From Stutzerimonas stutzeri (GTDB lineage Bacteria > Pseudomonadota > Gammaproteobacteria > Pseudomonadales > Pseudomonadaceae), in assembly GCF_024448895.1 (NCBI RefSeq), contig NZ_JAMOIC010000025.1, positions 1-55,446 on the forward strand: a DNA stretch of 55,446 nucleotides, read 5' to 3'. The notes under the pieces are model-generated. The model saw nothing but the letters and a program-made list of their open reading frames with translations, did not search any database and was not told where the DNA came from. Made by a program: the position numbers and the translations under genes. Positions 42,421 to 55,446 of the stretch are shown here, piece after piece. How positions within the stretch are numbered: position 1 is the stretch's first letter; each line of letters opens with the position of its first letter.

Positions 42421-43146
42421 TACTTCAGCTAGTCACGGGTCGCTAAAGCGGCAGCAAGCCTTGCGCTTGACGAGAACAACGCCTTCAAAGCTGAAGCCAC
42501 CACTTCTACCGACGGTATAGTGAACGCAGCCTAGCGCTCCATACATTGACTCAGCGCAACCAGCGCAACCAGCGCCTCCGGCGGCCCTTCGGGAACTCTC
42601 GGCGAGGCCAGGGATGATAGGGGGTGGAGCATCCCTCTCATCCCTAGCGAAGAGTACTAGTGTCAGGGTGGGTTCAAGGGTGCGCTGCGCCCGTACCTCC
42701 GTTCGCCGGACAGGTTAAGCGCTTGTCCGACGAGCCTGGAGTGCGGCCCTTGAGCCGGCTTGCTATGCACGGTTCGGCGACCACCAGCGTTAGAAAACTG
42801 CCCTGGCAACAGCCGCTTTATCAATGTCACATACCGGACCATACACGAGCAAGAGCTCCAGTCGGAGCGCATGGTGGTCGTCTTGTGTGGTCGGCAGGAT
42901 CCTGCTTTGCTCGACTGATTCTGCTCACTTGCTGTTAGGGCCTTATAGAGGCGCTTGCGCAGCACCCAGGTAGCAAGGCTAAGACACAGCCCACCTGGGA
43001 ACTTTTCCCTGCATCAGCGGGAGTTTTTCTGTATCGACCGCCACGATGCTCTCTCGATAATCGAATCGCCTGGCCAGCCGCTCTCAGCTGCCTGAATGAG
43101 GAGCGCAGCGACTGGCATCGTTCGAATCGACCAAGGGAAACTAACC
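42421..43146. other. Intergenic upstream of exaA
   Basis: About 725 bp without a supported gene. Frames of about 90 codons on both strands near 42.7-42.9 kb have no family resemblance. AGCGCAACC is repeated in tandem near 42557-42575. The exaA promoter must lie in the right part. No sigma-factor consensus was assigned with confidence. Confidence 0.45.
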
Positions 43147-45006
43147 ATGACAACAAGAATGCTCGTGGGCAGCAAATGCCCCCTCGCCATCGTTGTACTA
43201 GCCAGTGGACTCACGCTTAGCGGCATCTCATTCGCTGCGAATGTCTCCTGGGACGACATTGCCAACGACCATCTTTCGACTGAAAACGTATTGCAGTACG
43301 GCATGGGAACCAGCGCACAGCGCTGGAGCCCTTTGGCGCAGGTGAACGAAGAGAATGTCTTCAAACTGACGCCGGCCTGGTCCTTTTCCTTCGGCGACGA
43401 GAAACAACGAGGCCAGGAATCCCAGGCGATCGTCCACGATGGCGTGGTCTACGTGACAGGGTCGTACTCAAGGGTGTTTGCGCTCGACTCACGAACCGGC
43501 AAGCGGCTCTGGAGCTACGCTCACCGCCTCCCCGCCGATATCCGTCCGTGCTGCGACGTGGTCAACCGAGGCGCCGCTATCTATGGCGACAAGATCTTCT
43601 TCGGTACCCTCGATGCCCAGGTAGTCGCGCTGAACAAGGACACCGGCAAGGTCGTCTGGAAGAAGAAATTCGGCGACCATGGTGCGGGCTACACCATGAC
43701 CGGCGCGCCTACGCTGATCAAAGACCAAAAAAGCGGCAAAGTCATGCTGATCCATGGCAGCTCCGGCGATGAGTTCGGGATAGTCGGCAAATTGTTCGCG
43801 CGCGATCCGGATACCGGCGAAGAGCTCTGGATGCGTCCCTTCGTCGAAGGTCATATCGGCCGCCTGAACGGCAAAGAGAGCACGCCGACCGGTGATATCA
43901 AAGCGCCCTCCTGGCCGGATGACCCGTCATCACCCACTGGCAAGAAGGAAGCCTGGAGCCAGGGCGGCGGCGCACCTTGGCAGAGCGCGAGTTTCGATGC
44001 TGAAACCAATACCATCATCGTTGGGGCGGGCAATCCGGCACCTTGGAATGGCTGGGAACGCACCGCGAACGGCGGCAACCCGAAGGATTACGACAGCCTC
44101 TATACCTCCGGGCAAGTCGGGGTCGATGCCACCACCGGCCAAGTCAAATGGTTCTACCAGCACACTCCCAACGATGCCTGGGATTTTTCCGGCAACAACG
44201 AGCTGGTGCTGTTCGATTACAAAAACAAGGACGGCAAAACCGTCAAAGCCACCGCCCACGCTGATCGCAACGGCTTTTTCTATGTGGTAAACCGCCAGGA
44301 CGGCAAGCTACAGAACGCCTTCCCTTTCGTTGACAACATTACCTGGGCCAGCCATATCGACCTCAAGACCGGCCGACCGGTGGAAAACGAAGGCCAGCGC
44401 CCGCCAAAGCCCGAGCCGGGCGAGGCGCGAGGCAAGTCGGTGGAAGTCTCCCCCCCCTTCCTCGGCGGCAAGAACTGGAACCCCATGGCCTACAGCCAGG
44501 ACACCGGCCTGTTTTACGTTCCTGCCAACCATTGGAAAGAGGATTACTGGACCGAGGAGGTTAGCTACAAGAAGGGCAACGCCTATCTTGGCCAGGGCTT
44601 TCGCATCAAGCGGATGTATGACGACCACGTCGGGATCTTGCGTGCCATGGACCCCTCTACCGGCAAGGTGGCATGGGAGCACAAGGAGCCATTACCGCTT
44701 TGGGCGGGCGTGCTCGCCACCAGAGGCAATCTGGTATTCACCGGGACCGGTGATGGCTATCTCAAAGCGTTCAACGCCAAGACCGGCGAGGAGCTCTGGA
44801 AATTTCAGACTGGCAGCGGAATCATCGCACCGCCGATCACTTGGGAACAGGACGGCGAGCAATTCGTCGGCGTCACGGTCGGCTATGGCGGCGCCGTACC
44901 GCTGTGGGGCGGCGACATGGCAGTACTGACAAAGCCGGTCGCTCAAGGTGGCTCGTTCTGGGTATTCCGGATCCCGAGCTGGGACAACCAGACCGCCAAG
45001 CGTTGA
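43147..45006 (+). CDS. exaA: PQQ-dependent quinoprotein ethanol dehydrogenase ExaA
   Basis: A periplasmic quinoprotein alcohol dehydrogenase (619 residues) that oxidises ethanol and other short alcohols to aldehydes, using pyrroloquinoline quinone and calcium and passing electrons to a cytochrome c. It follows Pseudomonas ExaA almost throughout: a signal peptide ending ISFA|ANVSWDDIAND, QYGMGTSAQRWSPL, the vicinal disulfide pair C135-C136 (RPCCDVVN), WDFSGNNELVLFDYK with the catalytic-region aspartate, and GYGGAVPLWGGDMAV near the end. The ribosome-binding site AAGGGA lies before ATG 43147. The frame to 43096 is not needed. The cytochrome gene exaB normally beside it is absent here. Confidence 0.94.
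   Translation: MTTRMLVGSKCPLAIVVLASGLTLSGISFAANVSWDDIANDHLSTENVLQYGMGTSAQRWSPLAQVNEENVFKLTPAWSFSFGDEKQRGQESQAIVHDGVVYVTGSYSRVFALDSRTGKRLWSYAHRLPADIRPCCDVVNRGAAIYGDKIFFGTLDAQVVALNKDTGKVVWKKKFGDHGAGYTMTGAPTLIKDQKSGKVMLIHGSSGDEFGIVGKLFARDPDTGEELWMRPFVEGHIGRLNGKESTPTGDIKAPSWPDDPSSPTGKKEAWSQGGGAPWQSASFDAETNTIIVGAGNPAPWNGWERTANGGNPKDYDSLYTSGQVGVDATTGQVKWFYQHTPNDAWDFSGNNELVLFDYKNKDGKTVKATAHADRNGFFYVVNRQDGKLQNAFPFVDNITWASHIDLKTGRPVENEGQRPPKPEPGEARGKSVEVSPPFLGGKNWNPMAYSQDTGLFYVPANHWKEDYWTEEVSYKKGNAYLGQGFRIKRMYDDHVGILRAMDPSTGKVAWEHKEPLPLWAGVLATRGNLVFTGTGDGYLKAFNAKTGEELWKFQTGSGIIAPPITWEQDGEQFVGVTVGYGGAVPLWGGDMAVLTKPVAQGGSFWVFRIPSWDNQTAKR
43152..43159 (+). promoter_or_regulatory. Possible CA motif at the exaA start
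   Basis: AACAAGAA (AANAANAA) covers codons 2 to 5 right after the exaA ATG. Crc/Hfq sites may overlap translation starts, so exaA may be subject to catabolite repression. With one 8-nt match in coding sequence, chance is also possible. Confidence 0.35.
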
Positions 45007-45010
45007 TGTT

Positions 45011-45041
45011 ACAGCTGTGCTCGGTTGCCGAGCACAGCTGT
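45011..45041 (+). terminator. Perfect hairpin after exaA
   Basis: ACAGCTGTGCTCGG and CCGAGCACAGCTGT form a 14-bp perfect stem with loop TTG, 5 bp after the exaA stop. There is no T-run, so it may stabilise the transcript 3' end or act as a partial terminator before the pentapeptide-repeat gene. Confidence 0.65.
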
Positions 45042-45161
45042 CTGCATAGCAGCCAGGATGCTGCGAACTGGACGGATCTTAAGCGTATGTATCGTCCCGG
45101 CCAGCAGCGCCGCATTTCGTTGATACCCCTTTTCGCCGTTTCCCAACAGTGGAGAACAGCC

Positions 45162-45809
45162 ATGAACCTGTCCCGTTATCTGCTGCTTATCGCAGCGCTC
45201 CTCAGCGCGTCGCTACATGCCGAAGATCGACGTGTAACGTTCAACGGTTGTGTCATCCAACCGGAAAGCAACTGTGCGAATGTCGATCTTCGCGGTGCAG
45301 ATCTGAGCAACCAGGATTTGCGCAAGATGAATCTGGCCAACGCGAATCTGACCGGCGCCAACCTCCGACATGCCAATCTTGACCTTGCGAATCTAGAGAA
45401 TGCCAACCTGACCGGCGCCATTCTCAACCGCGCCAGTCTTCAACAAGCCAACCTGCGTCTGGCGGTCCTGACCGATGCGCAGCTGGTCGCCGTTCAAGCC
45501 TGGGGATTGTTCGCCCAGGGAGCACGATTTGAGGGCGCTAATCTAACGGCCGCCAACCTCGAGTTCGCTCGACTGAGCGGCGCCAAGCTGAAAGGTGCGG
45601 AGCTGACAGCGGCCAACCTAGAGATGGCGTGGCTGAACAAGGCCGACCTCAACCATGCGAACCTGACCGATGCCAATTTGCAAGAAGGAAAATTCAACGA
45701 TGCCAGTTTCGCCAATGCAATTTTGACCGGCTCACGTCGCCACTATGCGACTTTTCAAGGTACCTACATGGACGGCTGCCTCGATTGTCCAGTGGACTGG
45801 GAGCACTGA
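45162..45809 (+). CDS. Exported pentapeptide-repeat protein
   Basis: A 215-residue protein with a signal peptide (LLLIAALLSASLHA, ending near residue 20) and A(N/D)Lxx pentapeptide repeats in two blocks: NVDLRGADLSNQDLRKMNLA to about residue 110, then GANLTAANLEFARLSGAKLK to about 200. Such repeats fold as a right-handed four-sided helix. The two cysteine sets (GCVIQPESNCANV, DGCLDCPVDW) may form disulfides at the ends. In Pseudomonas putida and P. aeruginosa a similar gene lies right next to the ethanol dehydrogenase gene, as here. The function is unknown. The ribosome-binding site GGAG precedes ATG 45162. Confidence 0.88.
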   Translation: MNLSRYLLLIAALLSASLHAEDRRVTFNGCVIQPESNCANVDLRGADLSNQDLRKMNLANANLTGANLRHANLDLANLENANLTGAILNRASLQQANLRLAVLTDAQLVAVQAWGLFAQGARFEGANLTAANLEFARLSGAKLKGAELTAANLEMAWLNKADLNHANLTDANLQEGKFNDASFANAILTGSRRHYATFQGTYMDGCLDCPVDWEH

Positions 45810-46510
45810 GGCTGGAAGCCATCGGATGATGGCCGATGCGTTTTAAAAACTTACCCCATCAATGCCTGAAATGAAGCCCTTTTCATTATCCGCTTCCTTA
45901 ACTGACTGGCGCTGTCGGTTTAACCCGCTTCGAGTGGCTGCAGTTCGATCGCAATGCATCCGCTCTGCTCCTAAAAACCTTCGCTACGTCCGTCGATGAC
46001 ATTGCCGCGGGCGGCTTCGATACGGGAACCAAACCTACCTTCAGTGGGCTGGCAAATTTCTCAGCGCGCTCACCTCCCCCGATTGGCAATACAAGCTATT
46101 GGTATCAGATCGCGAGCGTCGGTTGCATTGCATAAAGGACGAAAGGAAATACTCGAATGGCCGGGTTTTTCTGCGTGGACAGCTAAGTTGCTGCCGAAGT
46201 CATCAGCTTAAAAAACACTTAAACCTGGCCCAAGCCGGGGGCCATAGAATATCAGCCAACCGCAGCCAAGCCGAAGCAGTCTGGACCTAGCCAACCAGCA
46301 GTTTCGTGATCGTCGAGCGGTAGCGCCTAAGCGGGCTCAAGCGACTCAAAGAACGAACACCACCTCTCGTTCAGGTTTGGCCATCTCCGCCACGTCGGCC
46401 AGGACGACTGGATAACCTCCTGCAGCTTCGGCGGCAGAAGTTGCCCTGTATCAACGCAGCTGCCCCCGACATCAAAGTTGGGCCGCTTGCCAACCTCCGG
46501 TGGTGCCACC
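45810..46510. other. Convergent intergenic region with coding relics
   Basis: About 700 bp between the pentapeptide-repeat gene and the response regulator gene. On the + strand around 45901-46130 a coding-like stretch (EWLQFDRNASALLLKTF, PIGNTSYWYQIASVG) runs without a usable start. On the - strand around 46330-46500 another (LQEVIQSSWPTWRRWPNLN) lacks a start of its own. Neither is recognised. They look like remains of lost genes. Confidence 0.35.
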
Positions 46511-47170
46511 CTAACTGGCGGCTCGGTCGCCAACCCGCAGGATTCCGGTATCGATAGCCAGATGAACCAACTCAGCATGCGAACTGACTTGCAGCTTACT
46601 CTTTAGCAGCGTCAGGTAATTGGACACCGTCTTGCCACTGATGCATAGCCGCTCGGCGATCAGACGTAGCGGAGTGCCTTTGGCGAGCATTACGAAAATC
46701 TCGAATTCACGCTGGGTCATAGCCTGTAAACGCGGGTCCGGGCCGTTGGCAGTGGTGGGATTGCATGCCAACTGCGTCGCCAGCGGCTGCTCGATATAGG
46801 CGTAGCCAGCCAGCGTACGGCGTACTGCATCCACTAGAATTTCTGGCGATGAGCTTTTGGTGATGTAGCCAGCGGCACCGGCATGCAATGCCTGACGCAC
46901 CAGTGGCAGCTCGTCGTGCATGCTGAAGAACAGCACTCGCAGCTGGGGCAATCGCTGCAACAAGCGCCGCGTGGTTTCCACGCCGCTGATACCAGGTAGC
47001 CCGATATCCATGATCGCCAAGCTTGGAGGCGTTTCATGAGCTATATCCAAAGCCTCCTCACCATCACGGGCTTCAATAACCTGGGCATCCGGCAACATCA
47101 CTCGTAGGAGCGCGGCGTAGCCCTGGCGAACCACGGCGTGATCGTCCACGAGCAGAATCTTCATGTTCAT
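46511..47170 (-). CDS. eraR: NarL/LuxR-type response regulator (EraR/PedR2-like)
   Basis: A 219-residue two-component response regulator. The receiver domain has D9-D10 and phosphoacceptor D55 (MDIGLPG), followed near residue 105 by ITKSSSPE with the conserved Lys. The C-terminal LuxR/NarL DNA-binding domain has MTQREFEIFVMLAKGTPLRLIAERL and SGKTVSNYLTLLKSKL. ATG 47170 overlaps the kinase stop as ATGA, and AGGAGG precedes it. Its position beside exaA and the pentapeptide-repeat gene corresponds to EraR/ExaE of P. aeruginosa and PedR2 of P. putida, which activate alcohol dehydrogenase genes. The named orthology is inferred from context and would need phylogeny. Confidence 0.85.
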   Translation of the reverse strand: MNMKILLVDDHAVVRQGYAALLRVMLPDAQVIEARDGEEALDIAHETPPSLAIMDIGLPGISGVETTRRLLQRLPQLRVLFFSMHDELPLVRQALHAGAAGYITKSSSPEILVDAVRRTLAGYAYIEQPLATQLACNPTTANGPDPRLQAMTQREFEIFVMLAKGTPLRLIAERLCISGKTVSNYLTLLKSKLQVSSHAELVHLAIDTGILRVGDRAAS

Positions 47171-48429
47171 GGTGCCTCCTTGATAGGTATGTCGAGATAG
47201 ACAGTCCACCCGCCGCCTCTGCGACCAGATGCGATTAGTGAACCTCCCAACGAACGCGCACGTTCTTGCATGGACCTGAGGCCAATACCGGAGCGCCGGA
47301 TTTCACCGCGTCCATCACCGTCATTACGAACCAGCAGTCGCAGCCGCTCCCCCTGTATACGTAGCCGAACGCACACGAAGCTGGCATGCGCATGCTTGGC
47401 CACATTGGTCAGCGACTCCTGTAAGAGACGGTATAGGTGCGCCTTGGCACTCAGATGCAGCCGCGGTAGCCGGTGATCTATGTGCAATCGCAACTCAATG
47501 CCTTGCGTGTTCTGCCAACGGTCGGCTAACAGGCGAATCGCCTCGGGCAGCTCCAGATGATCGAGCATCACGGGATACAACTCGCGAGTCAGACATCTGA
47601 AAGCATCCTGTAGCTGCTCACAGTACTCATCCACGCACCGCGCGGCGCTGCTCACCAGTGGAGGCTCATGCTTGATAGCCTGGAGCAAGCAGGCCTGGGC
47701 ACGGATGCCGGTTAGGTATTGTCCGAGGTCATCGTGCAGGGCTTGTGCGATCTGGGTGCGCTCGCGCTCCTGCAACGCAAGTAGTGATCGCGTGAGGTCA
47801 TCATTGTCCTGTCGAGTGTGTTCCAGCGAGCTGACCATGCGATTGAAATGCCCCGCCAGCTGTCTCGCCTCGAATAAGGACTGCGCTGGCAGACGGGTTT
47901 CGAGCCGCCCTTGCGATACGCAACCAAAGGCGGCTAGTAACTCATTCAGCATCCCGAGCGCGGGCTGCACGGCCCAGCGGATCGCCCACAGACTCAACAA
48001 TAAGGCGATACCAAACAACGCGAACAGTTGCAGTAACGAATCCCAAACTTCCTCGATTTCATCTTTGGGATTGACGCTCAACTGCAGCAATCGACCGTCA
48101 GCCATGCGCACCATCAGCGGTGCGGGCAGTTCGGCCGGATATAACACCGTCTCAAGCCAACTAATCTGATCCTGCTCACGTTCCCTATCGTCAATATCCT
48201 CCTCTTGAAAGCGCACCTGAACATGGCGCAGGTGGGCGGCCAGGTCTGGCTGAAGGAGCGCAGGGTCGCGTTCGGCCGCATCCCGAAGGTAGGTGAGTAC
48301 GGCAGCAGCCGCGTTCAGCTCACGCTCTACGTCGTGGCTAGCCTGGCGTAGCAGCACTACCAGGCAAATGACCGCGGCCAGGCTAAAAAACAGCGAAACC
48401 AGCAAACTGGTGCGCCAGAGCGCGGACAT
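47167..48429 (-). CDS. eraS: Sensor histidine kinase (EraS/PedS2-like)
   Basis: A 420-residue membrane histidine kinase. Helix 1 (about residues 9-28) and helix 2 (about 133-152) enclose a small periplasmic sensor of about 105 residues. A HAMP-like linker follows, then a HisKA_3 dimerisation domain with phosphoacceptor H232 (ALHDDLGQYLTG), and the ATPase domain (SLTNVAKHAHASFV, DGDGRGEIRRSGIGLRSMQER). This is the NarX/DegS-like kinase class, matching the NarL-type partner. The two genes overlap by 4 nt, so they are co-translated. In P. putida, PedS2 responds to lanthanides and controls the choice between calcium- and lanthanide-type dehydrogenases. Whether this one does is unknown. Confidence 0.85.
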   Translation of the reverse strand: MSALWRTSLLVSLFFSLAAVICLVVLLRQASHDVERELNAAAAVLTYLRDAAERDPALLQPDLAAHLRHVQVRFQEEDIDDREREQDQISWLETVLYPAELPAPLMVRMADGRLLQLSVNPKDEIEEVWDSLLQLFALFGIALLLSLWAIRWAVQPALGMLNELLAAFGCVSQGRLETRLPAQSLFEARQLAGHFNRMVSSLEHTRQDNDDLTRSLLALQERERTQIAQALHDDLGQYLTGIRAQACLLQAIKHEPPLVSSAARCVDEYCEQLQDAFRCLTRELYPVMLDHLELPEAIRLLADRWQNTQGIELRLHIDHRLPRLHLSAKAHLYRLLQESLTNVAKHAHASFVCVRLRIQGERLRLLVRNDGDGRGEIRRSGIGLRSMQERARSLGGSLIASGRRGGGWTVYLDIPIKEAP

Positions 48430-48799
48430 GTCTCAGCCCTCAGTATTGGAGAAATATCCGCCCGCACGTACTACTCAATCGAGAAAACCCTACCGTTCCT
48501 TTTTTCTGCAAACGCTTGCAGTAAAAACGTATAGCGGCCCGGCTTGATGGGTAGAACATAGATCTCTGCCGATCAAGCTGGCGATCAATAGCAGCTTGAG
48601 GACTAGGGGCTTTGAGGGAAGGCATAGTGTCTGCTCATTTTGTATGGACGTTCCCATGCTAGAGGCAGCCAGCAGAAGCCGGTTTACTACCTTGGTACAC
48701 AGCGACTGGTACTTTCAGCCTCGCAACGATTCCTATGCGGGCCGCAATATCGAAGGGGTTGGGTAAGGGTTCAGGCACTGAAACCGCTCAGGCAGTGTG
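48430..48799. other. Kinase upstream region, no gene supported
   Basis: About 370 bp upstream of the sensor kinase gene. The kinase-regulator promoter must be here. No further gene, repeat or RNA was recognised. Confidence 0.5.
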
Positions 48800-48955
48800 A
48801 GGCGAGTTGGCTAATGTGTTGATGTACTTGGTTCGTCTGGCGGACGTGCTTGGGGTCGATCTGGATGAAGCCATTCAATACAAGCTCAAGCGAAACGGGG
48901 AGAAATACCGGTGCACAAGGCACATGACGCGAGCAAGAAATACGACCAGCTCTAG
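48800..48955 (+). pseudogene. Remnant of MazG-like nucleotide pyrophosphatase
   Basis: The frame GELANVLMYLVRLADVLGVD, then LDEAIQYKLKRNGEKY, matches the C-terminal half of the dCTP/XTP pyrophosphatase (NTP-PPase, MazG-like) family. After KY a frame change restores the expected end (VHKAHDASKKYDQL) and stop. The 5' part of the gene is missing, with a TGA just before GEL. It is a broken remnant, and the upstream intergenic sequence is not recognisable as the rest. Confidence 0.7.
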
Positions 48956-48978
48956 AGTCGGCCAAGGAAGACCGCGTG

Positions 48979-49131
48979 ATGACTTACGAAGGAACCAAAC
49001 AGCAGTGCCTGCACGACACCGACAATGACGACATTGAAGATGTGATTCTCGCCCAGCTCGTTGCTCGCACCGGCAAGCGAGTCGGGCGTTTGGAGATCAA
49101 TGCGCGGAACCGATTGCTCGGTGGCATGTAG
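48979..49131 (+). CDS. Small protein of unknown function (50 codons)
   Basis: A 50-residue frame with AAGGAAG at 48964-48970 spaced 8 nt before ATG 48979. The product (MTYEGTKQQCLHDTDNDDIE and onward to NARNRLLGGM) is acidic at the start and basic at the end. It is not recognised. It follows a pseudogene directly, so it could be an isolated small gene or a chance frame. Its strong ribosome-binding site and full-length coding character favour a real gene. Confidence 0.45.
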   Translation: MTYEGTKQQCLHDTDNDDIEDVILAQLVARTGKRVGRLEINARNRLLGGM

Positions 49132-49365
49132 TTGGCGAAGAACGCCGCATCCCGTACGGGTTATGAGACAAAGCTGGTCGGCTCGACACGCGGACCCGCT
49201 TGTCGCACATGCTCACCGGCTCCCGGGCTGTCGGCGTTGACGCGGGAGTAACTGCGCAGCGACGGGTTCGGCCATTAGCGCTCCCTCGAATCGCCTAGTC
49301 ACCGGTCGTACACGCCCTTCTCGAGCCTGGGCTGATTGGGCGTGTTCGTGCCGAGCGCAATTGTT

Positions 49366-49869
49366 CTAATCGGTGGTCTTTTCTTCAGTGGTATCGGATG
49401 CGGCGATACGCTCTTTCGGCTTTGACTGGCTGCGTCGCGCTTGTCCGCGTTGCCGCTTAGCCTGCTGCTTTGCATGTAGCGCTTGAGTGGCCGTCACCGT
49501 GCCCACCGCCTGGCCGTTTAAGTCCAGACGCGGAGCATTCTCCACCATGCTTGCCCAGTATCGGCTCCCTTTGCACCAGGTCGCGATGCCCAACTTGAGC
49601 TGTTCGCTGGATATTCCAAGCAGCTTCAGGTGTTGCTCGGCATCTTTGAGAATGCCCTCCTTGAGCGGAACCTTGGGGCCCGGGTTGACCGGGAAGGCCA
49701 GCGGAAAGCGCTTCTGCAATCGCCTTATCGCCACCAATGCAGGATCTTCCTCGCGAGGCTTCGTTTGCAAGGCAGGTTCCCGCTTGCGCTGCTCCGTGCT
49801 TTCAGTCTTTTCCTGCTGCTTTTCAGCCCGCAGGCGGTCACGTAGCTCAGCTAGTTGCTCAAAACCCAT
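49366..49869 (-). CDS. ProQ/FinO-domain RNA-binding protein
   Basis: A 167-residue ProQ/FinO-family protein. The central domain (about residues 47-130) has RRLQKRFPLAFPVNPGPKVPLKEGI, DAEQHLKLLGISSEQLKLGI and WCKGSRYWASMVENAPRLDLNGQ, all typical of FinO-like RNA chaperones. Flanking tails are charged and low-complexity (EKQQEKTESTEQRKRE; QAKRQRGQARRSQSKPKE), as usual in this family. Such proteins bind small RNAs and mRNA hairpins and stabilise them. Short ProQ-domain proteins also occur on plasmids and islands. It lies downstream of the giant helicase gene on the same strand, separated by about 195 bp. Confidence 0.9.
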   Translation of the reverse strand: MGFEQLAELRDRLRAEKQQEKTESTEQRKREPALQTKPREEDPALVAIRRLQKRFPLAFPVNPGPKVPLKEGILKDAEQHLKLLGISSEQLKLGIATWCKGSRYWASMVENAPRLDLNGQAVGTVTATQALHAKQQAKRQRGQARRSQSKPKERIAASDTTEEKTTD

Positions 49870-50064
49870 CGTTCAGCTCGCCGCTTCATGGTTGATCGTG
49901 ACGCAAGATTATCCCATGCAGCCATTCGGAGCAGCCTCGCCAGGCGGCAACACGATCAAGAAGTGATCACGGCACACCGGCCCCTCCCTCATCGGCTCGG
50001 GATCACCGATATCGGTGGATAGACAAACGGTAATGCTGAACGAAGCCGTACGTGCGGCGCTCGG

Positions 50065-53000
50065 TCACAGACTCGATGCTGGTTTACTTAGGGTCGGGGC
50101 GCATCCCACGACTCTCGGCACCACCAACTCCCATTGCACACACTTATGCCAGGCCCGGTACTGCTCCTCGCAGTGCGCCGATTGCCTAACCAGAATGCCA
50201 GCCGCCTCGCATTGCTCAACCTCGAGCGGGAGCTTGAATGTTTTTGAGGTACGGCCAAGGGTTTGGCCCTGACTGTTTTGGATGAGGTACCGGTCCTCAC
50301 TCGGGACCAACGTCAACGGATCACCCATCTGAAGCTGCGCGATGGCCGCATGTACCGGTGCGTGTTCCGGGTGGCGGCCTGCGTAGTCCAGATCGATGTC
50401 CCTGAGTGAGAGCTGCAGGTAGCGTTTCTCAAGCGCCGGAAGGTACCGGCCTACGTATTCACGCTTCTGAATATTTACGGGCAGATGGCGGCTGAACGGA
50501 TTGCCATCGGGGAATTCGCACAGGGTCAGCGTCTGCTCAGCCCGGGTCATGCCCACGTAGTACAGGCGGCGCTCGTCATTGAGTACCTCCGCGCCGGTGG
50601 GCCAGCCACCGTCGAGCAGCACCACGTGCCGGAACTCCAACCCCTTGGCCGAATGCGCAGTGCCTACATACAGGCCTTGCTTCGGCTGCTGCCGCAGTTC
50701 TCGCGCGTAGTCGTACAGCCAGTCAATCACGGCCTGGGCGCTGAGCTGACATTCGCCAAGCTCAGCCAGCAGTTGGCCAAAGGCAACTTCGAAGAACTCA
50801 TGCCATTCGGGTTCAAGCGATGCGCTTTCGAGGTCACGCCAATGGCCTTTCGCATCAAGCGCCGCATCCTGAGAGCGCAGCTGTTCGATTGCCGCGACGA
50901 AGCCGCGCTGGCCGGTGAGCGGAAGCGCTGAATCCTTGTCAGCCGCCAGGCAATAGGAAACCCCGTTCTGCTCACACCAGGCCTGAACCGGGTACAGGCA
51001 CTCGTGCCGGCGCGCCAGGATGGCGCATCCCTGCCAGTCACCGTTCTCCAGATCCAACAAGCGCTGAAGCTCCGCTACGGCCGCTTGAGCCTGCAGGTTC
51101 GGTCGCGTTTGCTCATCGCCCGGTATCAAGAGGCAAATGACCTGCCCTCGCCGCTCGGTGTCTAGGTCCTCCCAATCGCCACCACGAGGGTGATCACGGC
51201 GTGACGTGTTGATCTGAATGGGATGACGCTGCTTCAGGCGGTCGGGGTTGCGCTCAATGAGGCTATTGGCAGCCTCGATGATGTGACGGGTCGAGCGGTA
51301 GTTGTCGATGAGGTAGCTGGTAGTCGCTTCGTAATCCTCACGAAACTGCAAAATGTAGCGATTGTTGGTCTCCCGCCACTGGTAGATGTTTTGGTCATCG
51401 TCGCCCACGGCTAGGATGCATAGCCGGCCATCCTCCTCCGCCTTGCGCCCGGCCAAGGCACTGACCATCCGGTACTGCAGCTCATCAATGTCCTGGTACT
51501 CATCCACCAAGATGTACCGATAGCCGCGCAGCAGTTGCTCGCGCAGATCATCCTCACCCTCGACCTGGCGTTTACCTTCGAGCAGTTCCACGGCGTCCGA
51601 CAGCACCTGTTTGAGTGTGCCCTCCTCAACCGCTTCGCCCCGAGCGAAACGGGTACCGGTCAGGCGCATGGCCATCCGGTGATAGGTCATCACGTTGACC
51701 CCGAAGGCATCGGCGCCGACCAGGCGCAGCAGGCGTTGCTTGATCTCGTTAGCGGCGTGGCGGTTAAAGGTCAGCGCCACAATGCAGCTGGCTGGCACCC
51801 GGCGCACGCGCAGTAGATAGGCGATGCGGTGCACGATGACTCGAGTCTTACCCGAACCGGGGCCGGCGAGCACCAGGCGGTTCATGTCATCGTCATCGGC
51901 GACGACCATTCGCTGCGGTGCGCTCAGGGTTTCGATGATGGTGTTCCAGGACTCCTCGCTGGTGGCGAGTTTCAGGACCTCTTCGCGCCCCTCGAAGTAG
52001 CGCTTGATGAAGTCCTGTTTGGAATCGCTGAAGTAGTGCATCACGAGGCTCAGCGCAGCGGCCATCTCGCCGAGAGCGACCTCGGCATACTCACGCATCA
52101 CGTGGACCTGGATCCGTTTTTCTCGGTAGTGCTCGTCGAGTTTGAGGTAATCGTCTTTTAGAAATCCGCTGCGCTTTTCCGGGTTGACCTCAATGGTCAT
52201 GGCGCGGCGCATCACGGTCATGCCGTGGTTGAGCGTCAAAATGTCCTGTTTGTGCAGGTACAGCAGTACGTGCTCGATGGCGCGCCGGCGTTGTTCTGGT
52301 GGGATCAGGTGCGGCAGCGCCAAGTCCGCTTCCAGGGCACGGGCCAGCTCACCAAAGGTGGTTTCCACCAGCAGATCCTTGCCACGAAGGCCTGCGGGAA
52401 TCTTGCTGATCAGAAACTCGAGCAGCACCCCAGCCAGCGCCCGACGCTTCTCGCCAAAGGTGTGAAGCTTCGCCCAGCTGTGGCCACCCTTGATGCGCAG
52501 TTTCAGATAATCACGACTGACCTGGCGCAGCTCCAGCGTGCCCTTCTGCTGGCTGTCGCTGTCATGGTCTTGCGCGAGGCTGCGTAACAAGCGCAGCACA
52601 TGCAGCGGTATCAACTCGCCTTGCCCGGTCGACTCTTTGAGCGCGGCGGTCAGTGGCGGCAAATTCAGGTCCTGCCAGGCACCGCTTTCGGCATCCGGGG
52701 CCTGCTCGCGCAGCGTTTCAAACAGACCCGCTTCCAGCTCGAGGGTGTGTTTCAAGCGCTGAGTGGCCGCGCCCGACACGCCATGACGCAGGTACAGGGT
52801 CAGCTTGGAGTCGTTCTCCAGCAGGCCCATGTCCTCCATCTGTTTGAGGGTCGCCGTGACCTCCTCAGAGGTGAGGCTGGTCAGGGCCATCAGCGCATCA
52901 GTGTTGATGCGCTCATCAGCCCCGGCGTCATACAGGAAGCGCAGGATCGCCCGAAACTCTTCCAGGCGGCGTGCTGGCAGGTCAGCGTTATTGAGGCGCT

Positions 53001-55215
53001 GTTCGGCTTGGGCCTGCGGCAGCCGGAGGGTCGCAGGAAAGATCTGGGTCTGGTTTTCTTCGCGCTTCAAGTACTGGCCGCGCTCGAGCCAGGCCACCGC
53101 GGTGACCACCTTGGTTTCGGCGTCGCGGTCATCGGCGTTAAAGCTCGTTTCGACCTCATCATCCAGCAGCACTTCGCCGGCGGTGATGATCAGCTTGCCA
53201 CCTTTGCGTCGGTCGCTTTCACGGCGCAGTTTGCGCAAGATCTGCTGAATATCGCGCAGGCCAAGCTTGGAGCGTTCGCACATGCCGAACTGGGTTTCGA
53301 TGTCTTGCAGGTCATAGAGCAGCACGCAACGGGCGTCGCCTTGGTCGCGCCCTGCGCGCCCGGCTTCCTGCAGGTAGTTTTCCAGCGAGCCCGGAATGTC
53401 GGCATGGACCACCAGCCGAATGTCGGCCTTGTCCACGCCCATGCCAAAGGCATTGGTCGCGACAATCACACGCAGTTGGCCTGCCTTGAACGCATCTTGA
53501 ATGTCGGTCTTTTCGTGAGGTTCGAGGCCTGCATGAAAGTGCTTGCAGGGCCAGCCCTGTCCGATTAGAAAGTCTGACAGTTCCTCGGCGCCCTTACGGC
53601 TGGAGACAAAGACCACCGAGCCACCGTCGTGCCGACCAATATGGTCTTCAAGCAGCTGGTGGGTGCGCGCCCACTTCTCGGCACGGGTGCACGGCAACAC
53701 CTCGAAGCTCAAATTGGTGCGCTCATGGGTGCCCAGAAAGGTCTCGAACTCGATCTTCAGCTGCTCCCTGAAATGCTGCTGAATGTCCTCAAGCACATCC
53801 GGTTTGGCCGTGGCGGTAAAGCAACCGATGGGGGCCAAGGGGCCCCCACCGGTGTGCTCGCTGATAAAGCGCGACACGTATTGGTAATCGGGGCGGAAGT
53901 CGTTGCCCCATTTGGACAAGCAATGGGCTTCATCAAAGATCCAGGCACCGATCTGGCGCTGCTTGATCGCCCGGCGAAAGGCCTTGTTGCGAAACTGCTC
54001 GGGCGAAACCAGCAGGATGCCGACGTCCCCCATCTGAACCTTCTCCAGCACCTCGGCCCGCTCGGGCATGGTCAACAGGCCATTGAGGGTGGCGGCGCAT
54101 TGCACGTTGCGCTCAAGCAAGCCGTCGACCTGATCCTTCATCAAGGATTGCAGCGGCGAGATGATGATGGTCAGGCTGCCGTTGCGGTGAAAGCGGTTCA
54201 GGGCCGGGAGCTGGTAACACAGGGATTTGCCACCGCCGGTGGCGAGAATGGCCAGCACGTGTTGGCTGCGCATGCCGGCCAGCACCACGTCGTGCTGCAA
54301 AGTCTTGCCATCCGGTTCGGTCCGAAAGTCATCAAAGCCAAAGTAGCGCTTAAGCTCATGGCGCGGGTCATGGGTGGTGGCGCAGTACTCGCAATCTTTG
54401 CGTCCGCACGGAACGTCCCGCAGCTCGGCAATGAGCCGCCCTACTTCCGGAAACTGATAGCGCACCCAGGGGGCCAATACTGAGTTGCCGCCTGACACTC
54501 GGAGCCACGCCAGTGCATAAGCCAAGGGCAGATGCAGCGACGGGTCCAGCAGGTCGGTTTCGAGGAGCTGTTCAAGGCGGGTGCTGCAGACCTTGAGGCT
54601 TCGGGTCAGGGTCGGGTCGTTTTCAACCAGCAGTTGGGGAATCAGGCCGCGCAGCTCGGTGACCGGTTTGGGGCTGGTGCCGCTGAGCGAGGCGAAGAAT
54701 GAGCCCAGGTCACTTTTGAGTGTGGGGGCCAGCAGCGTCTGGTAGCACAGCAGCTCCGCCTGGTTGGTCTCGTTCAGTTGGGCAAAGGCCTGACGCTGGT
54801 CCTGAAACAGGGTGAGCGTGGAGCGGCAATCGGACAGCGGTGAGTTGAGGCTGTCCCGAATGAGTTTGTAGTCCTTGACCAGTCGGTGATACGGGTTCTG
54901 CGGAAAGGCCAAGGGCGACAGACGCAGGGTGTCGATCACCGGCAGCCCGTGCAGGGCCAGGTGTGGGGCCTGTTGTCTGAGGATCGGCAGGTCATGGTCG
55001 ATGACGTTGTGGCCGAGGACGAAGCTCGCGCCCTGCCCCAGGCTGTCCAGCGACTCGAGAATATCGGGTAAGTCCCGGTCGACTTTGCGCTCGAGCTCGG
55101 CGCCAGTGTCGGGGCGCAGGGCGCCGACCATGAAGATCCGGTCGGGCTTATCGGCTTTGCCGGGGGCGACTTCGAGATCGAAGATCAGGCTTTTAGGTTG
55201 AGACGGTGAAGCCAT
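50065..55215 (-). CDS. Exonuclease-like/RecQ/UvrD fusion helicase
   Basis: A 1716-residue protein with three recognisable parts. Residues 1-140 resemble a DEDD 3'-5' exonuclease: FDLEV (D13, E15), GHNVIDHD (about D73) and a D129-containing C-terminal motif, but the usual His is replaced by N124. A cysteine group (C270, C275, C278) precedes the RecQ-type helicase: Walker A ATGGGKSLCYQLP (K330), DEAH 428-431, LSKWGNDFRPDY, and motif VI QEAGRAGRDQGD. A winged-helix-like region follows. A UvrD/Rep-type helicase occupies about residues 1090-1620: AGPGSGKTRVIVHRIAYLLR, DEYQDIDELQYR, GDDDQNIYQWR and GTAHSAKGLEFRHVVLLDG. Both helicases move 3'-5' in their families. Role not established: repair or phage defence are plausible. 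Confidence 0.85.
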   Translation of the reverse strand: MASPSQPKSLIFDLEVAPGKADKPDRIFMVGALRPDTGAELERKVDRDLPDILESLDSLGQGASFVLGHNVIDHDLPILRQQAPHLALHGLPVIDTLRLSPLAFPQNPYHRLVKDYKLIRDSLNSPLSDCRSTLTLFQDQRQAFAQLNETNQAELLCYQTLLAPTLKSDLGSFFASLSGTSPKPVTELRGLIPQLLVENDPTLTRSLKVCSTRLEQLLETDLLDPSLHLPLAYALAWLRVSGGNSVLAPWVRYQFPEVGRLIAELRDVPCGRKDCEYCATTHDPRHELKRYFGFDDFRTEPDGKTLQHDVVLAGMRSQHVLAILATGGGKSLCYQLPALNRFHRNGSLTIIISPLQSLMKDQVDGLLERNVQCAATLNGLLTMPERAEVLEKVQMGDVGILLVSPEQFRNKAFRRAIKQRQIGAWIFDEAHCLSKWGNDFRPDYQYVSRFISEHTGGGPLAPIGCFTATAKPDVLEDIQQHFREQLKIEFETFLGTHERTNLSFEVLPCTRAEKWARTHQLLEDHIGRHDGGSVVFVSSRKGAEELSDFLIGQGWPCKHFHAGLEPHEKTDIQDAFKAGQLRVIVATNAFGMGVDKADIRLVVHADIPGSLENYLQEAGRAGRDQGDARCVLLYDLQDIETQFGMCERSKLGLRDIQQILRKLRRESDRRKGGKLIITAGEVLLDDEVETSFNADDRDAETKVVTAVAWLERGQYLKREENQTQIFPATLRLPQAQAEQRLNNADLPARRLEEFRAILRFLYDAGADERINTDALMALTSLTSEEVTATLKQMEDMGLLENDSKLTLYLRHGVSGAATQRLKHTLELEAGLFETLREQAPDAESGAWQDLNLPPLTAALKESTGQGELIPLHVLRLLRSLAQDHDSDSQQKGTLELRQVSRDYLKLRIKGGHSWAKLHTFGEKRRALAGVLLEFLISKIPAGLRGKDLLVETTFGELARALEADLALPHLIPPEQRRRAIEHVLLYLHKQDILTLNHGMTVMRRAMTIEVNPEKRSGFLKDDYLKLDEHYREKRIQVHVMREYAEVALGEMAAALSLVMHYFSDSKQDFIKRYFEGREEVLKLATSEESWNTIIETLSAPQRMVVADDDDMNRLVLAGPGSGKTRVIVHRIAYLLRVRRVPASCIVALTFNRHAANEIKQRLLRLVGADAFGVNVMTYHRMAMRLTGTRFARGEAVEEGTLKQVLSDAVELLEGKRQVEGEDDLREQLLRGYRYILVDEYQDIDELQYRMVSALAGRKAEEDGRLCILAVGDDDQNIYQWRETNNRYILQFREDYEATTSYLIDNYRSTRHIIEAANSLIERNPDRLKQRHPIQINTSRRDHPRGGDWEDLDTERRGQVICLLIPGDEQTRPNLQAQAAVAELQRLLDLENGDWQGCAILARRHECLYPVQAWCEQNGVSYCLAADKDSALPLTGQRGFVAAIEQLRSQDAALDAKGHWRDLESASLEPEWHEFFEVAFGQLLAELGECQLSAQAVIDWLYDYARELRQQPKQGLYVGTAHSAKGLEFRHVVLLDGGWPTGAEVLNDERRLYYVGMTRAEQTLTLCEFPDGNPFSRHLPVNIQKREYVGRYLPALEKRYLQLSLRDIDLDYAGRHPEHAPVHAAIAQLQMGDPLTLVPSEDRYLIQNSQGQTLGRTSKTFKLPLEVEQCEAAGILVRQSAHCEEQYRAWHKCVQWELVVPRVVGCAPTLSKPASSL

Positions 55216-55353
55216 CCGGACGGCGATCCTTGCAACAGACTACGGGGCTATTGGCACTGTAGCGGCAAATGCCCGTTCTAGGTAGGTGCGTGGGGTCGCG
55301 GTGGGTGTGGGTGCGGGGGTTTCCGACGGGTGTGGGCGGATGAACAACGGCAG

Positions 55354-55441
55354 GAGCAAAAGAGCAAAAGAGCAAAAGAGCAAAAGAGCAAAAGAGCAAA
55401 AGAGCAAAAGAGCAAAAGAGCAAAAGAGCAAAAGAGCAAAA
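55354..55441. repeat. 11-copy tandem octamer GAGCAAAA
   Basis: Eleven exact, back-to-back copies of GAGCAAAA, followed by a partial copy (GAGTA) at the window end, so the tract may continue beyond it. On the leftward transcript it reads TTTTGCTC and lies 139 bp upstream of the giant helicase start. Octamer tracts of this length slip readily during replication, so the number may vary between cells and change spacing in the promoter region. The open frames across it (repeated LLFCSFA) are a product of the repeat. Confidence 0.95.
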
Positions 55442-55446
55442 GAGTA

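Follow-up and report, generated by a model that had tools for sequence, protein, structure and literature searches.

What does a bacterium gain from keeping two 3'-to-5' motors in one chain? The question is posed by a gene of Stutzerimonas stutzeri (assembly GCF_024448895.1) that lies in a stretch of 55,446 nucleotides, positions 1 to 55,446 of contig NZ_JAMOIC010000025.1; we call this whole stretch the window. The frame at 50065-55215 on the minus strand runs for 1716 residues without an internal stop and encodes a single protein, which joins a DEDD-exonuclease fold, a RecQ-type core of helicase superfamily 2 (SF2) and a UvrD-type core of superfamily 1 (SF1) (Table 1). Known RecQ-family and UvrD-family motors move 3' to 5' along single strands. 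A first-pass annotation, made from the DNA letters and their translations, had proposed such a one-frame exonuclease-like, RecQ and UvrD protein, and profile matches, the predicted fold and conserved motifs bear it out; all the residues that it had named (D13, E15, D129, N124, K330 and D428 to H431) were found at those positions. With moderate confidence, we read the gene as encoding a helicase-nuclease that stands alone, has spread horizontally and most likely protects the cell from phages or other invading DNA.

Table 1. Features of the two-motor gene and of the stretch ahead of it (window coordinates)
Feature	Coordinates	Strand
Whole gene, 1716 residues: DEDD exonuclease fold, Cys4 site, RecQ core, winged-helix region, UvrD core	50065..55215	-
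DEDD exonuclease fold, residues 9-150; D13, E15, D75, D129; N124 at the usual His/Tyr place	54766..55191	-
Metal-site candidate, residues 210-282; C210, C270, C275, C278	54370..54588	-
RecQ-type SF2 core, residues 288-651; GGGKS 327-331, DEAH 428-431, QEAGRAGRD 616-624	53263..54354	-
Inter-motor region, residues 652-1090; winged-helix-like pieces (weak evidence)	51946..53262	-
UvrD-type SF1 core, residues 1094-1570; GPGSGKT 1118-1124, DEYQDI 1238-1243, YVGMTRA 1553-1559	50506..51936	-
Poorly conserved tail, residues 1571-1716	50068..50505	-
Pre-start stretch, alignable in relatives	55216..55353	-

When one genome per species was scanned, 147 stretches were found to encode relatives, and 79 distinct loci were kept from these. 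Our alignment has 71 rows, the query plus 70 relatives with a frame of at least 1590 residues; nine shorter or broken ones were left out (L023, L030, L031, L035, L036, L037, L039, L042 and L052). The 70 near-full-length relatives share the architecture and the motifs at identities down to 36%, the closest being locus L001 at 88%, and the aligned rows span Pseudomonadota, Thermodesulfobacteriota, Kiritimatiellota, Myxococcota and Gemmatimonadota. Plasmid relatives at about 28 to 32% identity, some of which cover the query partly, extend the family to Cyanobacteriota, Campylobacterota and Bacteroidota. The two folded alignments took in 60 of 68 (A1) and 60 of 70 (A2) usable relatives. Because architecture and motifs are conserved across the aligned relatives, a chance fusion is excluded, and a misread fusion fails as the ordinary explanation. 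Conservation fades in the tail, whose final dozen or so residues vary in almost all relatives.

No Pfam family (0 at E ≤ 1) matched the N terminus of the window protein. Structure prediction returned an RNase H-like fold of the DEDD exonuclease type (predicted local distance difference test [pLDDT] score of 89.8), the fold whose absence the first-pass annotation had named beforehand as a possible refutation. DEDD exonucleases trim 3' ends. The fold and the four acidic ligands of this superfamily are present, with D13 and E15 in 69 of 71 rows (the other two have gaps) and D75 and D129 in all 71, whereas the general base (His or Tyr) that usually precedes the last Asp is absent. Position 124 is Asn in 69/71 rows and position 125 is Ser, Asp or Asn in every row. 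With the base residue missing, the domain is neither DEDDh nor DEDDy proper. The lost His had been noticed before, along with the suggestion that the domain may be inactive; with the acidic quartet complete and Asn124 family-wide, a loss of exonuclease activity is less probable than was then held. The missing base, together with the loop at residues 113 to 121 ahead of N124, predicted with a pLDDT under 50, would suit a defence protein whose N-terminal domain is a 3'-end sensor or clamp rather than a nuclease, with motors that strip proteins or unwind. Four essentially invariant acids would hardly be needed for mere binding, however, and N124 is conserved rather than drifting, which makes this alternative improbable.

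Between the exonuclease fold and the first motor, C210, C270, C275 and C278 are each present in 71/71 rows, and H282 is present in 68. A Cys group had been placed ahead of the helicase before; its location was right, and its count of three was short, since C210 is equally invariant and makes this a four-Cys site. The RecQ core matched TIGR00614 over residues 288 to 651 (E = 1.5e-85; 287.8 bits against a cutoff of 219.8), in a match that stops at position 347 of 470, and it also matched the Pfam families DEAD and Helicase_C; the equivalog TIGR01389 scored 326.1 against its own cutoff of 640.2. K330, the DEAH box and each position of QEAGRAGRD are found in all 71 rows. Behind the core, the zinc cluster of RecQ proteins is absent, as had been observed: residues 640 to 1090 hold a single, unconserved Cys (C646), and no column there exceeds 40% Cys in the 71-row alignment. 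Neither RQC nor HRDC gave a Pfam match at E ≤ 0.01, and a diverged winged helix may stand in place of RQC. Because the zinc cluster is missing, the protein falls outside the classical RecQ family proper, though its RecQ-type core scores above the family cutoff.

The second motor is as well preserved. Pfam UvrD domains lie between residues 1104 and 1565 (PF00580, E = 2.6e-42; PF13361, E = 9.1e-14), and the N and C domains, DEYQD and GDDDQNIYQWR are all present, with Walker Lys1123 and DEYQ in 71/71 rows. Among the 25 NCBIfam matches listed, no equivalog attains its own cutoff, the UvrD, PcrA and Rep models included. PADLOC models of 84 families (2023 library) matched at E ≤ 0.01, and each of the 25 listed covers only part of the chain, none spanning both motors: DpdF and PsyrT models fall on the RecQ part and GajB models on the UvrD part. 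Annotated relatives listed are called RecQ family helicase, ATP-dependent DNA helicase RecQ or UvrD-helicase domain protein; the family is thus hidden under RecQ and UvrD labels, and it is easy to test.

Public annotation, which labels relatives RecQ family ATP-dependent DNA helicase, would fit an ordinary housekeeping helicase of the lineage. At E ≤ 1e-100, however, the gene is present in only 9 of 56 genomes in the genus (the S. stutzeri genome itself counted), 24 of 298 in its family and 7 of 274 in its class, and 5,426 Escherichia coli genomes gave no match with two DNA queries in near mode. The S. stutzeri genome also has separate RecQ-like frames of 643 and 787 residues and UvrD/Rep-like frames of 762 and 680 residues. 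A housekeeping RecQ therefore fails as an explanation, and an ordinary housekeeping helicase of the lineage is very improbable. The first-pass annotation had named housekeeping homologues as a second possible refutation; the relatives are instead patchy, sometimes on plasmids (21 of the 941 matching plasmid records cover at least 80% of the query) and often near defence genes.

Copies are also damaged in three of the nine carriers within the genus. The copy in G007 lacks its first 365 residues, and that in G012 is split in two pieces. The copy in G026 (L128, contig C10) is 98% identical over residues 1 to 704 and has lost residues 705 to 1499, a deletion that takes out the inter-motor region and most of the UvrD core. 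Stops within the matches in G011 and G013 seem to be where shorter tails ordinarily finish, as in L003 and L043. In a FastTree tree of the 71 rows, we counted 13 class changes against a minimum of 5, a tally that by the tool's own warning is by itself no proof of transfer; Nitrosomonas europaea grouped with two Pseudomonas (support of 98), in a clade that also holds Pseudocitrobacter. Over 19 to 25 kb compared, the window shared with G051 (seemingly the same strain as L001), G031 and G013 only the gene and about 150 to 200 bases ahead of it. No sigma-70-like site was found in the alignable stretch ahead of the start codon.

We then looked at the neighbours of the gene at the 79 loci, clustering them by BLAST; open reading frames (ORFs) came from a script that takes the longest first rather than from a gene finder. 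Clusters that recur are a sensor histidine kinase (11 loci), NOV_C/PDC-S36 (7), a short-chain dehydrogenase/reductase (6), an ATP-binding cassette ATPase (5) and, at 4 loci each, MkoA, MkoB, a ResIII helicase of 1111 residues and a 352-residue protein. MkoA and MkoB, which carry an AAA_11/AAA_12 helicase with NERD and weak kinase-like matches, lie immediately upstream in L004, L022 and L032 and immediately downstream in L008. In L001, L004, L033 and L043, a PDC-S36 gene lies downstream of our gene, 16 to 387 bases away; in L001 the distance is 234 bases, and a type III methyltransferase lies 382 bases upstream. In L005, L022 and L032, a ResIII/Helicase_C gene (1111 residues where whole) begins 41 bases downstream of our gene, and in L022 and L032 our gene itself follows the Mokosh genes, an arrangement that is possibly a sub-island of three helicase systems.

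PADLOC tallies, which count families rather than proteins and list the 25 commonest (one protein can match many models), gave 73 families at E ≤ 1e-25 for the 113 nearest neighbours. Among those listed were PDC-S36, type I, II and III methyltransferases, Mokosh A, B and C, and mad2. The 94 genes more than 6 kb away in the same loci gave 57 families at that threshold, among those listed type I restriction, PglX, BrxH, ZorB, ZacA and SngC. The near set held 113 of 136 listed genes (L067 to L079 and the gene's own fragment in L036 were dropped) and the far set 94 of 109. As a control, all 112 ORFs of at least 150 residues in 15 stretches of genus genomes without the gene (20 sought, 5 absent) gave 12 families (RtcR, PDC-S06, QatC, QatD, ShosA and PsyrA), which look like housekeeping paralogues; defence models thus match the gene's neighbours far more often than random genes from the genus. 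Of 10 hand-picked neighbours, three had a PADLOC match: ZacA beside L045, a partial PtuA beside L002 and PDC-S36 beside L001, the last already known before this test. That the gene is accessory and tends to sit in defence regions is well supported.

Several observations weigh against a defence role. No neighbour is universal, and the commonest cluster is a generic sensor histidine kinase at 11/79 loci; since far genes are about as defence-rich as near ones, the link is to the region and not to a partner, and the control genes come from a single genus. Seven of the 10 hand-picked neighbours had no PADLOC match, and Pfam matches in the nearest neighbours include HypF, FeoB, COX1 and ACCA. In the window itself, no defence gene was recognized among the neighbours in the Pfam and PADLOC scans, and the contig ends 231 bases ahead of the start codon. 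Judged from its residues, the exonuclease, without a His/Tyr base, may be slow or inactive. Among plasmid neighbourhoods, of which we examined 11 of 941 matching records, clustered regularly interspaced short palindromic repeat (CRISPR) or restriction genes lay within 8 kb in only 2 of the 11 stretches (one unannotated): a type I-D CRISPR system 4 to 5 kb away in Thiothrix and type I restriction in Allochromatium. Toxin-antitoxin or HipA genes were nearby on plasmids of Cereibacter, Rhizobium, Sulfitobacter and Aliarcobacter, and insertion sequence elements on that of Microvirga. Neighbours on the Bacteroides plasmid included no clear defence name, the Phocaeicola stretch carried no annotation, and the Nostoc and Scytonema stretches gave no clear reading.

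The same regional pattern could arise if the protein were an accessory enzyme of repair, recombination or replication restart for the upkeep of mobile elements, brought near defence genes by shared islands. Such a role would resemble that of WRN, the human RecQ helicase with an N-terminal exonuclease, whose exonuclease and RecQ core likewise share one chain. Some plasmid copies (in Aliarcobacter and Bacteroides) adjoin genes for replication, partition or single-stranded DNA-binding protein (SSB), the neighbour enrichment is regional rather than partner-specific, and the genome's own RecQ and UvrD/Rep fit a selfish extra copy just as well. Against it, Mokosh, PDC-S36 and restriction genes recur beside the gene in chromosomal loci, and none of the 114 phage records with a match covers 80% of the query. 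A single locus came from viral contigs: L150, a full-length relative at 43% identity on a 55,554-base contig filed as viral, which may be a virus or a misplaced bacterial piece. We regard upkeep of mobile elements as a somewhat unlikely alternative.

For the defensive reading, we infer a sequence of steps. The protein would bind foreign DNA during replication or recombination, at an exposed 3' end or a single-stranded stretch, with the winged helices and the Cys4 site aiding binding; a foreign target is proposed because of where the gene lies in genomes. Driven by ATP, the two motors would then open up the forks, joints and duplex in front of them, with the DEDD domain trimming the 3' strand pulled past, so that replication or repair of the invader fails. 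A self-contained motor pair for anti-phage work, as first proposed from the sequence, is plausible on these terms. Surveillance with a toxic outcome, that is, abortive infection by a protein restrained, as Hna is, until a phage trigger such as phage SSB appears, would agree with the single-gene habit, with the damaged copies in 3/9 genus members and with the precedent of Hna. We saw no toxicity, trigger or immunity partner, and no conserved antitoxin-like neighbour at the 79 loci, and we give this variant little credence.

Hna is a lone SF2 helicase plus nuclease protein that acts by abortive infection as a complete system (PMC13381803). Like Hna, the window protein is large, combines helicase and exonuclease in one accessory protein, and lacks a fixed partner. 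Hna has a C-terminal PD-(D/E)XK nuclease and one SF2 motor, whereas the window protein has an N-terminal DEDD domain, two motors of different superfamilies and no Pfam match to a PD-(D/E)XK nuclease. The best structural match of the N terminus is DinG of Staphylococcus aureus and Bacillus subtilis, in which a DEDD exonuclease likewise precedes an SF2 helicase and 3'-5' exonuclease activity on single-stranded DNA was shown for the proteins of both species (PMC12525004). The DinG helicase is XPD-like and is described with no UvrD part; the window protein has RecQ and UvrD. The GajB (Gabija) and DpdF resemblances are partial only (PADLOC), and neither a GajA nuclease nor a Dpd operon is among the neighbours listed. 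Mokosh type I (MkoA/MkoB), which adjoins the gene in 4/79 loci, is a neighbour and not a homologue.

WRN, too, differs: the window protein is bacterial and accessory, has no RQC or HRDC match and no DEDDy tyrosine, and adds the Cys4 site and a UvrD-type motor. Helicase-nuclease defence proteins known to us have one motor or consist of two proteins. The protein is likely a helicase-nuclease variant among defence systems, and one chain that combines motors from two superfamilies with a proofreading-type exonuclease would represent a new design for such a machine. The family is conserved over distant phyla, yet it occurs in few genomes of each. More tentatively, it may be a one-gene immune family in which an Asn-site DEDD exonuclease, a four-Cys metal cluster (zinc or iron-sulphur) and RecQ and UvrD motors form one machine. 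If so, it would be a single-chain counterpart, built of unrelated parts, of the multisubunit RecBCD/AddAB, aimed at foreign replication and recombination intermediates.

Beside the gene lies a ProQ gene (PF04352, E = 1.5e-28), correctly recognized in the first-pass annotation. Its role as a partner is not supported: ProQ DNA recurs without the helicase gene in G055, G047 and G037, so a ProQ operon fails as an explanation and the neighbour is incidental. The ProQ region (window 48778-49976) recurs at 83 to 92% identity in several genus genomes, where its pieces 48778-49121 and 49123-49223 are separated, and a second ProQ-like copy (80%) lies on contig C8 of the same genome; this is a mosaic, rearranging stretch. 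Farther on, window 43096-48429 encodes a pyrroloquinoline quinone-dependent alcohol dehydrogenase (769 bits; cutoff of 480) and a two-component system made up of a UhpB-like kinase and a UvrY/GacA-like regulator, genes of ordinary metabolism that adjoin the finding. On the other side, 139 bases ahead of the start codon, a tandem array of 11.4 perfect copies of GAGCAAAA fills 55354-55444 at the contig end. No four-unit run of GAGCAAAA occurs elsewhere in the genome as assembled. The G026 contig opens with a three-unit run, ahead of the damaged copy, and the array may be a long-standing feature of the locus at which assemblies break off.
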